DNA of 61,203 bases from Parvibaculum sp. Its GTDB lineage: Bacteria > Pseudomonadota > Alphaproteobacteria > Parvibaculales > Parvibaculaceae. Both the position numbers and the translations under genes were made by a program. Shown in pieces: positions 16,978-21,264 of this stretch. The stretch covers positions 1 to 61,203 of the forward strand of contig JAHBYL010000015.1 in NCBI GenBank assembly GCA_019635955.1. The letters run 5' to 3'. Every line of letters starts with the position of its first letter. The first letter of the stretch is position 1. The notes under the pieces were generated by a model. That model was not told where the DNA came from and made no database searches. It worked only from the letters and a program-made list of their open reading frames with translations.

Positions 16978-17520
16978 ATGCCCGGCATCGACGAGACACG
17001 CGACTTCATCCCCCTCAATATCGCCGTGCTGACTGTCTCCGACACGCGCACAGCCGAGGACGACAAGTCGGGCGATACGCTGGCCGAGCGTATCGAGAAG
17101 GCGGGACATCATATCGCTGCGCGCCGCATCGTGCCGGACGACACGTCGCTCATTCGCAGCACGCTCAAGACCTGGATCGCGGACGACAAGGTGGACGTGG
17201 TGATCTCGACCGGCGGCACCGGGCTCACCGGGCGCGACGTGACGCCGGAGGCTTTCAAGTCGGTCTACGACAAGGAGATCGACGGGTTCTCGGCCCTCTT
17301 CCACCGCGTCTCCTACGACAAGATCGGCACATCGACGATCCAGTCGCGAGCGACAGCGGGTGTCGCAGGCGGCACTTTCCTCTTCGCGCTGCCGGGCTCG
17401 CCCGGCGCCTGCAAGGACGGCTGGGACGAAATCCTCGTCCACCAGCTTGATTTCCGCTACCGCCCCTGCAATTTCGTCGAGATCATGCCGCGCCTTGAGG
17501 AGCACAAGCAGCGCAAGTGA
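16978..17520 (+). CDS. moaB: Molybdenum cofactor biosynthesis protein MoaB
   Basis: MoaB/Mog-family protein of 180 residues, which adenylylates molybdopterin before metal insertion (in some organisms the role is taken by Mog). The conserved molybdopterin-binding signature [16 protein letters not shown] and the [12 protein letters not shown] motif near the C terminus are both present, as is the N-terminal [10 protein letters not shown]. Start [10 protein letters not shown] with AAAGG 10 bases upstream. It follows the pump terminator and faces the alcohol dehydrogenase gene tail to tail with only 6 bases between stops; no other moa genes are in view. Confidence 0.93.
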
Positions 17521-17526
17521 ACGCCT

Positions 17527-18696
17527 TCAGCCTGCGATCGCCTGCTCGAAAAGAACGGCATACTCGCCCCGGTTGACACTCCGCGGATTGGTGAAGGTGC
17601 AAACATCCTTCACGGCGTGCTCCGAGAGATAGGGGATCATGTCGGCGGTAACGCCCATCGCGCCGAGGCTTTGGGGAAGGCCGAGCCGGATATTCAGCGC
17701 TTCGATCTCGTCGGAAACATCTGCGCCCTGCGGCAGTCCCATTGCCGAAGAGATGCCCTGCAGGGCTTCCCCGATCTTTTCGTGATTGTAGCGCAATATA
17801 CAGGGAAGACAGACGGCGTTCAACGTGCCGTGATGGAGACGCAGGCCCGGCAGGGAGCCGCAGGCATGGCTCATCGAGTGAACCGCGCCGAGGCCCTTGG
17901 TAAAGGCCATGGCGCCTTCGGTCGAAGCCATCATCATGTTCCAGCGCGCCTGCGCATCGGCACCGTCGGCGACGGCACGCTCAAGATTGCCCAGGCCGAG
18001 CGCGCGGCGAATACCGTCGAGCCCCACTGCATCGGCCGGCGGATTGATCTGGCGTGAACATACGGCCTCTATGCAATGGGCAACGGCGTCCATGCCCGTC
18101 GCGGCGGTGAGGAGCGGCGGCAGGCCAAGCGTCAGATCGGGATCGCAGATCGCGATGCGCGGCACCAGGTGTTTGCTCGCGAGAATAAGCTTTTCGCCAT
18201 TCGACATGATGACGACGGCACCGGTCGAGACCTCGCTGCCCGTGCCGGCGGTCGTCGGGACGGCGACGAGGGGCGCCACAGGACCGATTTTCTGCGCACC
18301 GCCGACACCGGCCGTGAATGAGATCATATCGCCTTGATGCGTAACCGTGAGGGCTACGGCCTTGCCGAGGTCCATGGAGGAGCCGCCGCCAAGCGCAATG
18401 ATCCCGTCGCAATCAGCCTCGCGATAGAGGGCGGCGGCGGCGAGGACTGCCTCTTCTGTCGGATTCTCCGGCGTGTCGTGGAAAATCGTCGCCTGAAACT
18501 CGTTCGACATGGCGCCGCGCACCTTGTCGACGACACCCGCACGCACAAGCCCCATATCGGTGCAGATGAGCGGGCGAGAAATGCCCTGCCCCTTCAGGGC
18601 GGAACCGAGCTGGTTGATTGCACCGTGATCGAAAACGACCGTCGTACAGAATGTAAGCGTTGCCACCTTAGTTTTCCCGTTCAGTTGCTGCCCCAT
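17527..18696 (-). CDS. Iron-containing (group III) alcohol dehydrogenase
   Basis: NAD(P)-dependent dehydrogenase of 389 residues. The nucleotide-binding GGGSSMD motif (103-109) and the metal ligands Asp203, His207 (GMDAVAHCIEA), His273 (AVHSMSHACG) and His289 (LHHGTLN) are all present, so it should bind Fe2+ rather than the catalytic zinc of medium-chain enzymes. The substrate is unknown; relatives act on ethanol, butanol, propanediol or lactaldehyde. It is the last gene of a tight minus-strand operon behind a Zur box and its start overlaps the preceding 65-codon gene by 16 bases. That placement suggests induction during zinc shortage (inference). Confidence 0.93.
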   Translation of the reverse strand: MGQQLNGKTKVATLTFCTTVVFDHGAINQLGSALKGQGISRPLICTDMGLVRAGVVDKVRGAMSNEFQATIFHDTPENPTEEAVLAAAALYREADCDGIIALGGGSSMDLGKAVALTVTHQGDMISFTAGVGGAQKIGPVAPLVAVPTTAGTGSEVSTGAVVIMSNGEKLILASKHLVPRIAICDPDLTLGLPPLLTAATGMDAVAHCIEAVCSRQINPPADAVGLDGIRRALGLGNLERAVADGADAQARWNMMMASTEGAMAFTKGLGAVHSMSHACGSLPGLRLHHGTLNAVCLPCILRYNHEKIGEALQGISSAMGLPQGADVSDEIEALNIRLGLPQSLGAMGVTADMIPYLSEHAVKDVCTFTNPRSVNRGEYAVLFEQAIAG

Positions 18697-18878
18697 GCAT
18701 CTTCGTCTGCATGATCGAAGCGCGTGAGGAAGAGTTCCCAGAGTTGTTCGTTCCCGCCTTGGTCGAGCAGCTTCAAGCGTCCGCGCAGGGAACGCCGTGT
18801 AAGCTCCCCCTTTCGGAAGCTCTCGATGAGATCGAGGAACTGCGATGCCTGATCGCGCGACAGACGGACAAACTGCAT
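18681..18878 (-). CDS. Small orphan protein in the Zur-controlled operon
   Basis: A 65-residue charged protein (MQFVRLSRDQASQFLDLIESF...) with two predicted helices, many Arg/Lys and acidic residues, no membrane segment, no cysteine and a single histidine (HADEDAW), so it is unlikely to be a zinc-binding metallochaperone by itself. It begins 9 bases after the DUF1826 stop and overlaps the dehydrogenase start by 16 bases, which supports real translation and coupling. I do not recognise a family. A role as a regulator or partner of the dehydrogenase is only a guess. Confidence 0.6.
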   Translation of the reverse strand: MQFVRLSRDQASQFLDLIESFRKGELTRRSLRGRLKLLDQGGNEQLWELFLTRFDHADEDAWGSN

Positions 18879-18887
18879 TTTGCTTTC

Positions 18888-19457
18888 CTAGTGATCCGCC
18901 GGGCAGCCGCAGATTTCACCCGCCGGGGTCAGGCAGAGAAGAAGCCGGGTCATGCCGGTGCCGAGGATCGGCGGCGAACGGTGCAGAACGCCGCCAGAGG
19001 CGCAATTCCGCCCTTCGAATATGCCGACCGCGAAACGCGGCAGCTCATTGACCGTGCCGCGAAACCCATGCTGCTCGCGCAACGCCTGTTCCGCTTCGTC
19101 ACCGGGGACCCACTGCGTGCCGGGGCCGCGATAGGCGCAGAGCAGCCGAAGCGACACATGATCGCGATGGAAGCGGCTGCAGGCATCGTCATCGATGCGA
19201 TCGAGCCGCACCTCCAGTTCGCGGCAGCCTGCCCGCACGGCAAAGCTGCGAGCCAGATTCGCAATGTCCATGCGCAGCCAGGGCGCGCATTCCCCGGGGA
19301 GCAAACCGGCCACATCTTCCGCGCGCGCGACGAAACGGGCCGACGGGAGGTCGTCCGGCGCCAGGGCGTCGAGCCATTGCAGAACGGATTCCGGCACCTG
19401 CCGTATCAGGATTTCAGGCGCAGCGAGGTGCGGCGCAGGTTTCGCGAGGGCTTTCAT
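18888..19457 (-). CDS. DUF1826 family protein
   Basis: A 189-residue protein of the DUF1826 family, which repeatedly occurs beside CobW-type GTPases. Near the middle are RFHRDHVSLRLLCAYRG and GTQWVP, and near the end GVLHRSPPI, so several histidines (RFHRDH, LHRSP) are placed as possible metal ligands; the shape recalls a 2-oxoglutarate/Fe dioxygenase-like pattern but this is a guess. Start MKALAKPAP at 19457, because the longer frame lies inside the CobW gene; it is separated from the CobW stop by one base. Its biochemical function is not established. Confidence 0.82.
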   Translation of the reverse strand: MKALAKPAPHLAAPEILIRQVPESVLQWLDALAPDDLPSARFVARAEDVAGLLPGECAPWLRMDIANLARSFAVRAGCRELEVRLDRIDDDACSRFHRDHVSLRLLCAYRGPGTQWVPGDEAEQALREQHGFRGTVNELPRFAVGIFEGRNCASGGVLHRSPPILGTGMTRLLLCLTPAGEICGCPADH

Positions 19458-19458
19458 C

Positions 19459-20682
19459 TCAGGCTGCCGCGTCTCTGCTCCAGACCGGGAAAGGATCGCG
19501 GAGCTTGTCCCACGCCTTCCAGTCGAATTTCGGCCTTGCGTCCGAACCGAGAAGGCAGGCGTCGAGTTCACGCCTTATCCACGCTTCGTCCATTTCACGA
19601 GCGATGCCGATGAAGACGATTTCCTGGCGGCGGTCGCCCCAGACCTCGTGCCAGTTCTTGTCCAGTTGCGCGCGCCATTCGGGATTGTCGGGCCAGCGGT
19701 CGCGCGGCAGCACATCCCACCAATAGCCGATCGCCTCGTTGCGGACGAGCGCGCCTGCCTGGCTTACCTCACCGACCCATTCCGGCCGTGTGGCCAGCCA
19801 GAAGTGCCCCTTAGCGCGGATGACGCCCGGCCAGTTCGAATTCAGAAAACGGTGGAACTTCTCAGGGTGAAAGGGACGCCTCGCACGGTAGACAAAGCTG
19901 CGAATGCCGTATTCTTCGGTCTCGGGCGTGTGATCGGCAAAGCCGAAGAGTTCCTTGTACCAGAGGGGGTGGCGCTGGGCCTCCTCAAAGTCGAAAAGGC
20001 CCGTATCCAGCACCTCCGCGAGCGGCAGGCGCGCGAAATTCGTTTCCACGATCCTCGCATCCGCATTGAGCGAGCGGATGATGCTCCGGGCGAGCTCGAG
20101 TTCCTGCGGGCTCGCCTCGTCCACCTTGTTCAGGACGATCACATTGGCAAACTCGATCTGCTCGACGAGCAAACTCACCAATGAGCGCGTGTCGTCCTCG
20201 CCAAGGCTTTCTCCGCGATCGGCAAGAAAGTCGCTCGATGAATAATCCTTGAGGAGGTTCGCCGCATCGACCACCGTCACCATCGTGTCCAGTTCTGCGA
20301 CATCGCCAAGACACTCGCCCGCCTCATCGCGAAAGTCGAAGGTCGCCGCGACGGGCAGTGGCTCCGATATGCCGGTCGATTCGATAACCAGGTAGTCGAA
20401 GCGCCCTTCCTCCGCCAGCATGCGGACTTCCTTCAGCAAGTCGTCGCGCAAGGTGCAGCAAATGCAGCCATTGGTCATCTCGACGAGCTGCTCCTCAGAG
20501 CGGGTGAAGGCGGCATCACCCGCCCGGACGAGATCGGCGTCGATATTCACCTCGCTCATATCGTTGACGATGACGGCGACGCGGCGCCCCTCCCGATTGT
20601 TCAGGATGTGATTGAGCAGGGTCGTCTTTCCCGCACCGAGAAAGCCGGACAGGACAGTCACAGGGAGTTTCCGCTCAGACAT
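19459..20682 (-). CDS. CobW/COG0523 GTPase, probable zinc metallochaperone (ZigA/YciC type)
   Basis: GTP-dependent metallochaperone of 407 residues thought to deliver zinc to client enzymes when zinc is scarce. It has the P-loop GFLGAGKTT (13-21), the metal-binding CICC (73-76, in the GCICCTLRD context), the IESTGISEP switch region, NKVD (186-189), and a C-terminal CobW domain with histidine-containing segments ([11 protein letters not shown]). The ATG at 20682 has GAGG 6 bases upstream. A near-perfect Zur palindrome lies 19 bases before the start, so transcription should rise when zinc falls. It heads an operon with DUF1826, a small protein and an iron dehydrogenase. Confidence 0.94.
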
Positions 20683-20701
20683 GGGATACCTCGAATATCG
20701 G

Positions 20702-20720
20702 AATGTTATAATATAACATT
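20702..20720. promoter_or_regulatory. Zur box (zinc uptake regulator operator)
   Basis: AATGTTATA-A-TATAACATT is a perfect 9-1-9 palindrome matching the proteobacterial Zur consensus (ATGTTATANTATAACAT core). It lies 19 bases upstream of the CobW gene start and 116 bases from mscL, and its AT-rich centre probably overlaps the -10 region of the minus-strand promoter (a weak TTGCGC -35 is at 20741-20736). Confidence 0.9.
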
Positions 20721-20835
20721 ACATTTCAGGCCGATGCGCAAGGCCGCCTTCCGGTTTCTTTCCCGTTGTGCCTTTCTCCGGCGCGCGGCACGATTCCTGC
20801 CTCAGAAGGAATCACCGGGACGGAGGTCAGCCCAA

Positions 20836-21264
20836 ATGCTCAAGGAATTTCGCGAATTTGCCCTGAAGGGCAATGTGCTCGACATGGCGGTCGGCATCAT
20901 CATCGGCGCGGCTTTCACGACCATCGTGCAGTCGCTCGTCAATGACGTCATCATGCCGCCGATCGGCGCGATCATGGGCGGGGTCGATTTCAGCGATTAT
21001 TTCATCGCGCTCACACTGGCGGAGACTGCACCTGCTTCCGTGGATGCAGCGAAGGCGGCGGGTGTCCCGGTTCTCGCCTATGGGCGCTTCATCAACGCCA
21101 TCATCCAGTTCACCATCGTCGCCTTTGCGCTATTCCTCGTCATCAAGCAGATGAATGCGCTGAAGGCCCGCATCGCAAAGGGCGAGGCGCCCGCACCTTC
21201 CGCGCCGCCACGCCAGGAAGTGCTGCTCGAGGAAATTCGCGACGCGATCAAGGCGCGCGGCTAG
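20836..21264 (+). CDS. mscL: Large-conductance mechanosensitive channel
   Basis: Forms a pentameric emergency valve in the inner membrane that opens under hypo-osmotic shock. The 142-residue protein starts [20 protein letters not shown], followed by the first helix ([23 protein letters not shown] split across about 15-42), a periplasmic loop, the second helix ([19 protein letters not shown]), and a charged C-terminal bundle. Start at 20836 fits the family N terminus; the frame open upstream runs back over the Zur box. The last 4 bases overlap the stop of the opposing methyltransferase gene. Confidence 0.96.

Follow-up and report, generated by a model that had tools for sequence, protein, structure and literature searches.

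Why would a gene for an iron-type alcohol dehydrogenase (Fe-ADH) stand at the end of an operon that appears to answer to the zinc regulator Zur? The question is raised by a locus of Parvibaculum sp. on contig JAHBYL010000015.1 of assembly GCA_019635955.1, whose 61,203 nucleotides analysed here are called the window (contig C57 of genome G000, which comprises 201 contigs and is 86.81% complete). The closest named record is a Parvibaculum metagenome-assembled genome (MAG) whose dehydrogenase is 97% identical. An earlier note on this DNA had proposed that a Zur palindrome governs four genes, the last of which encodes an iron enzyme replacing a zinc-dependent one when zinc is scarce. Matrix scores, genome-wide sites and conservation support the first part of that proposal, predicted Zur control of the four-gene unit; the replacement of a zinc enzyme is plausible but unproven, as the ligands fit either metal and no reciprocal pattern with PF08240 dehydrogenases was found in nine genomes.

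The locus is made up of the following features.

20702-20720, no strand: Zur-type operator, perfect 9-1-9 palindrome AATGTTATAATATAACATT; 27.9 bits with a held-out matrix
19459-20682, minus strand: zigA, COG0523 GTPase / zinc metallochaperone, 407 aa; NCBIfam NF038288, Pfam cobW and CobW_C
18888-19457, minus strand: DUF1826 protein, 189 aa; PF08856, with ATG 19457 read from the sequence
18681-18878, minus strand: 65-codon gene, predicted helical protein; alignment in five genomes, ratio of nonsynonymous to synonymous substitutions (dN/dS) and AlphaFold2 model
17527-18666, minus strand: Fe-ADH family dehydrogenase (4-hydroxybutyrate-dehydrogenase-like), 379 aa; PF00465/PF25137, start placed by relatives

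We read the locus, with a probability of roughly 0.55, as a Zur-repressed zinc-starvation operon whose Fe-ADH would keep a dehydrogenase activity going while saving zinc. With zinc plentiful, zinc-loaded Zur on 20702-20720 would block transcription; with zinc scarce, zigA, the DUF1826 gene, the 65-codon gene and the Fe-ADH gene would be transcribed together. ZigA would then allocate the remaining zinc, and the Fe-ADH would supply an NAD-dependent alcohol or hydroxyacid dehydrogenase activity (nearest named enzyme, 4-hydroxybutyrate dehydrogenase), using iron, or a single metal ion in place of two, and the cell would thereby keep the activity and save zinc.

The predicted Zur operator and its operon

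The site was scored with a symmetric Zur matrix of 19 positions derived from the upstream regions of 40 zigA loci, from which the window and the loci L074, L075 and L076 were held out. A prior consensus that resembles the window site served as the seed of the matrix, and its training set includes the zigA loci of G012 and G016 (both Parvibaculum) and of G779, as well as the Fe-ADH-holding loci L079, L080 and L109. Sites of at least 14 bits were obtained from 30 of the 40 regions and no good site from the remaining 10, so that some families are not covered. The resulting consensus is exactly the window palindrome, which reached 27.9 bits, the best non-overlapping position in the window scoring 8.8. 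The 13-base core of the palindrome, allowing up to two mismatches, had one match in the window, where 0.04 would be expected. Over the whole of G000, the pattern TGTTATANTATAACA with at most two mismatches gave four matches vs none for the reversed control. The three other sites precede an operon for ZnuB and ZnuA (PF00950, PF01297), a TonB receptor gene and a Fur-family gene; the best NCBIfam model for the latter is Zur (112.6 bits, under the cut-off of 167), and the gene is probably zur. This set of sites is a conventional predicted Zur regulon. Chance as the origin of the window site was ruled out by the rarity of the core, the absence of reversed-control matches, the matrix score and the control DNA described below. 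Taken together, the site and its regulon context are supported by the sequence, and Zur control of the operon is very likely; repression in vivo and co-transcription of the four genes are inferred.

The arrangement described in the earlier note was largely found as stated. The palindrome is perfect and lies 19 bases (20683-20701) ahead of the zigA ATG at 20682; one base separates the zigA stop at 19459 from the DUF1826 ATG at 19457, and nine bases (18879-18887) precede the 65-codon gene. Its 16-base overlap of the Fe-ADH gene holds just for the longest open reading frame (ATG 18696), which we replaced as the start by GTG 18666: relatives begin with MATLTF or MANLTF, and L011 and L012 have an ATG where GTG 18666 aligns, so that a gap of 14 bases is more probable at this junction than an overlap. 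On either side of the unit, a MoCF_biosynth gene (16978-17520) converges on the Fe-ADH gene, and mscL (20836-21264) lies beyond the Zur site and points away from the zigA operon, as it also does in L010, L011 and G034.

Recurrent linkage of Fe-ADH genes with Zur sites and COG0523 genes

Relatives of the two main genes were recognised at E values of 1e-100 or better for the dehydrogenase (FeADH) and of 1e-130 or better for zigA. At these cut-offs FeADH was found in eight and zigA in ten of the 40 genomes of the family, and both occur in the same seven of 27 Parvibaculum genomes. The comparison of gene order that the earlier note had suggested revealed the full four-gene order of G000 in G020, G017 and G026 as well, and G034 keeps zigA, the 65-codon gene and FeADH with DUF1826 gone. 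On a tree of SMC from 26 genomes the zigA/FeADH trait changed five times, and four times among the 21 genomes that are at least 85% complete; G026 had no marker row for this tree, and G027, the nearest sister (83% complete), lacks both genes, maybe through incompleteness.

At the same cut-offs, among 385 genomes of the Alphaproteobacteria, FeADH was present in 50, zigA in 49 and both in 12. The two genes are adjacent or in one operon in four of the 12 (G000, G034, G011 and G376), and lie 4.2 kb apart in G129 and 15 kb apart in G264. In G011, from another genus, a Zur-type site of 24.6 bits is followed by zigA and FeADH as neighbours. In G376, from another family, a 16.5-bit site, a hisI-family gene, zigA, FeADH and DUF1826 follow one another on one strand, with gaps of about 250-330 bases flanking zigA; both zigA and FeADH of G376 share 87% identity with their G011 counterparts, as if the two genes had been transferred together. 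Within the 300 bases ahead of zigA in G376 the matrix gave no Zur site, and the 15-base pattern was absent from that genome vs three matches for the reversed control. The evidence for Zur in G376 is weaker than in Parvibaculum.

A distant Fe-ADH subfamily, 32-33% identical to the window protein, is found in G161, G264 and G129. In G161 (L109, 9422-11705) its gene has zigA on one side and a further COG0523 gene on the other; in G264 (L080, 15032-17315) it adjoins a COG0523 gene in a cluster that also includes cysS, sufE and thrS family genes; and in G129 (L079, 253-1458) it lies 3.3 kb from zigA. The zigA sites of these three genomes score 20.7-23.6 bits, but they took part in matrix training and belong to zigA. 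L080 also carries a gene for a zinc-type dehydrogenase of the medium-chain dehydrogenase/reductase (MDR) type.

The linkage extends to the Gammaproteobacteria. In the family of the gammaproteobacterial MAG G779 (L013), FeADH was detected in 12 of 100 genomes, with upstream DNA assessable in 11, as the G873 contig starts inside the gene. Eight of the 11 genes (G814, G856, G779, G838, G872, G817, G865 and G800) carry a Zur-type site of their own, of 11.4-19.9 bits, 39-72 bases ahead of the FeADH start. Each of the eight scores was reached by 0-2 of 300 first-order resamples, other FeADH promoters among 98 redundant locus entries score no higher than 7.7 bits, and 415 kb of control DNA, whose shuffles were likewise first-order resamples, contained a single position reaching 11.4 bits. 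In G817, FeADH is the first gene of a row continued by a 94-codon gene and DUF1826, and a Fur-family gene, MerC and a COG0523 gene run divergently from that row; the G800 gene is flanked on one side by a Fur-family gene plus a MerC-like gene (assigned by look) and on the other by a COG0523 gene. The nearby COG0523 genes in the gammaproteobacterial stretches read are 29-39% identical, and none is zigA.

In a tree of 76 FeADH proteins, 13 of the 15 labelled as Zur-linked grouped in a single clade of 19 rows, and the other two were the pair of G011 and G376, which stands apart. The clade has a Shimodaira-Hasegawa-like approximate likelihood ratio test (SH-aLRT) value of 98 by a quick method, and Zur-linkage changed five times on the tree vs a mean of 13.9 in shuffles. 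Counting the distant subfamily, three Fe-ADH lineages are in or beside Zur/COG0523 clusters, and the sequences support this linkage as recurrent. Because eight of 11 assessable gammaproteobacterial relatives carry their own Zur-type site, the Fe-ADH seems to be a member of Zur regulons on its own account, and it is probably a selected member of the regulon rather than a passenger.

Other genes recur around these loci. MerC-domain or MerC-like genes, possibly encoding metal transporters of the regulon, lie beside zur, COG0523 or FeADH genes at L228 1097-1558, L230 7606-8037, L076 12037-12438 and L079 5977-6366, those of L228 and L079 being assigned by Pfam and those of L230 and L076 by look. 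In addition, in two gammaproteobacterial relatives FeADH overlaps at its end with a gene for an AraC-family regulator (L223 7002-7949, L224 6662-7609), which is followed by a TonB-receptor-like gene; the regulator was assigned by Pfam in L223, and by look in L224, as were the TonB-like genes.

The dehydrogenase and the proteins encoded with it

Profile scores agreed with the earlier note on the gene families, CobW GTPase, DUF1826 and iron-type alcohol dehydrogenase, so that the identity of these genes is supported as well. ZigA scored 622 bits with NF038288 vs the equivalog cut-off of 600, and the DUF1826 protein (scanned as 18888-19445) 123 bits with PF08856 vs 22. The Fe-ADH protein reached 155.9 bits with PF00465, whose cut-off is 31.3, and also matched PF25137. 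Its best NCBIfam model is NF058672, 4-hydroxybutyrate dehydrogenase of the Cupriavidus type; the 475.1 bits obtained are 25 under the curated cut-off of 500, and the protein is therefore not claimed as that enzyme, although the G011 relative exceeds the cut-off with 520.9 bits.

The Fe-ADH family is not known to be homologous to the zinc-type dehydrogenases, and its ligand set serves iron or zinc within the family. Residues D203, H207, H273 and H289 (numbered from ATG 18696), which we take to be the four metal ligands, one aspartate and three histidines, were found in all 96 relatives checked and can be aligned with solved Fe-ADHs. PF08240, which covers zinc-type dehydrogenases plus non-zinc kin, matched 13 proteins in G000 and 12-19 in eight other genomes, none of them tied to the reaction of the Fe-ADH. 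We infer iron in the active site, a substrate of the alcohol or hydroxyacid type and a zinc enzyme whose work would be relieved. G000 also holds a second Fe-ADH gene (L002, contig C123), 40% identical, in a 4.1-kb locus without a match to the Zur-type core.

With regard to the two smaller proteins, H97, D99, H159 and R171 of DUF1826 are conserved in all 23 sequences compared, and the HxD...H...R spacing presumably resembles that of Fe(II)/2-oxoglutarate oxygenases. A likeness to oxygenases finds no support in the AlphaFold2 model, which was built from four sequences and is unusable at a predicted local distance difference test (pLDDT) value of 45, and the sequence search found no relative of solved structure. 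It is also spoken against by a report that ties the domain to predicted succinylglutamate desuccinylases, possibly zinc dependent (PMC5786701). The 65-codon gene looks real: it can be aligned in five Parvibaculum genomes including the window, with 62-95% identity to the window copy, and dN/dS was 0.21 and 0.14 in two comparisons. Its AlphaFold2 model is helical (pLDDT 80); a PDB search at a limit of E 0.001 gave no match, nor did Pfam or NCBIfam. In a class search at E 0.01, five of 372 genomes matched, two strongly and both of these Parvibaculum; three partial matches outside (E about 0.004, within longer frames) look like chance given the number of genomes. Among the genomes searched, the gene is restricted to Parvibaculum.

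Possible reasons for an iron-type dehydrogenase in a predicted Zur operon

Zinc sparing is the likeliest, if unproven, reason for the presence of the Fe-ADH in the operon, and taken by itself, as the purpose of the enzyme, we place it a little short of even odds. Several observations weigh against it. Iron and zinc are indistinguishable from the sequence of the metal ligands, and no zinc-dependent counterpart was found: across nine genomes there was no reciprocal FeADH/PF08240 pattern, the only two without FeADH, both Parvibaculum, having 19 (G013) and 17 (G015) PF08240 matches and the Parvibaculum genomes with it 13-18. In G012 and G016, FeADH (70% identical) lies apart from zigA, in another context and without a Zur site; zigA and FeADH are far apart or on different contigs in six of the 12 class genomes with both; and G792, G824 and G831 have FeADH without a Zur site. 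The co-occurrence of zigA and FeADH offers only four independent pairs on the tree (p 0.125) and is mostly explained by linkage, and it was set aside as standalone evidence, not being significant once the tree was applied. Predicted sites also call for caution, as that of Corynebacterium glutamicum adhA was unbound and deletion of zur left adhA unaffected (PMC2823685).

The Fe-ADH could instead be a zinc enzyme and a client of ZigA, co-expressed for loading or to keep enough active copies, and the place of the gene in an operon with or beside zigA in two FeADH clades fits this, as does a metal site that, with the ligand roles we take it to have, suits zinc. A raised copy number has been proposed for paralogues that retain zinc ligands (Haas et al. 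2009, PMC2770081), and Adh4p of yeast is reportedly activated by zinc (PMC10526403), which likewise counts against zinc sparing. However, eight of the 11 gammaproteobacterial genes have their own site, with no zigA in the stretches read, and because of such sites without zigA nearby a fixed pairing with zigA is not required; we consider a client role unlikely. A metabolic role without any zinc counterpart, in which the enzyme deals with a consequence of zinc starvation (a build-up of succinate semialdehyde/4-hydroxybutyrate or of aldehydes, or redox balance), would agree with 4-hydroxybutyrate dehydrogenase as the closest named family, passed by the G011 protein, and with the missing PF08240 pattern. 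It is made improbable by neighbours that belong by family to known Zur-linked stand-ins and may be second copies in these genomes, hisI in G376 and cysS and thrS in G264 (family list in PMC2770081). The view that the Fe-ADH gene is a mere passenger, placed after a Zur operon by chance, finds some support in the second Fe-ADH gene of G000 and the site-less FeADH genes of G012 and G016, but the gammaproteobacterial sites, the Zur/COG0523 linkage in three lineages and the retention of FeADH in G034 despite the loss of DUF1826 make it the least credible account.

Zinc sparing through a dehydrogenase has precedents, of which the earlier note named none. In Saccharomyces cerevisiae, ADH4 is induced by Zap1 and filed under zinc sparing (PMC2535606, PMC3369956); like the Fe-ADH it is homologous to an iron-activated enzyme, according to a reference title in PMC2535606, and is induced by a zinc-starvation regulator. 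The yeast case differs in being eukaryotic, with an activator and with known, repressed counterparts (ADH1/ADH3), whereas in Parvibaculum the regulator is a predicted repressor and no counterpart was found. A 2018 review (PMC6103462) states that Zur-regulated enzymes are often zinc-free paralogues, naming alcohol dehydrogenase as an example, and tabulates Corynebacterium adhA and Neisseria meningitidis adhP, dehydrogenases discussed in Zur regulons; they differ from the window case in that adhA is the zinc enzyme and adhP is placed in the activation column, the opposite direction. Zinc-enzyme paralogues linked to Zur beside COG0523 comprise FolE2, PyrC, Cam, HemB, DksA, CysRS, ThrRS, HisI, QueD and AmiA in Haas et al. 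(2009, PMC2770081), where DUF1826 is named in a figure legend and the word dehydrogenase is absent from the main text. Those clusters resemble the window in uniting a Zur-type site, a COG0523 gene, DUF1826 and an enzyme gene, and differ in that the Fe-ADH family, not known to be homologous to the zinc-type dehydrogenases, would be no paralogue of them. In the open-licence literature we found none joining Zur with iron-containing alcohol dehydrogenase, Fe-ADH or lactaldehyde reductase, and among the matches listed none pairs the name of an Fe-type enzyme with zinc shortage; Zur together with COG1454 brought up a single paper, on Thermoanaerobacter.

The Fe-ADH operon may be the bacterial equivalent of an exchange of enzymes that has been proposed to save zinc in yeast. 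We advance only tentatively the broader idea that Alpha- and Gammaproteobacteria have on three or more separate occasions brought iron-type alcohol dehydrogenases into their Zur regulons, where these take charge of a dehydrogenase activity once zinc is short, in convergence with Zap1/ADH4 and as a recurrent, uncatalogued class of stand-in whose partner family is non-homologous. If zinc sparing by the Fe-ADH holds, iron-type dehydrogenases would be a new element among the zinc-saving measures of bacteria, backed by sequences from two classes, and convergence with yeast would be suggested; the locus would also offer a clean test of how a COG0523 chaperone, Zur and an iron enzyme share their tasks under zinc shortage. 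With the gammaproteobacterial FeADH genes that have their own site, the dehydrogenase could be studied separately from zigA.

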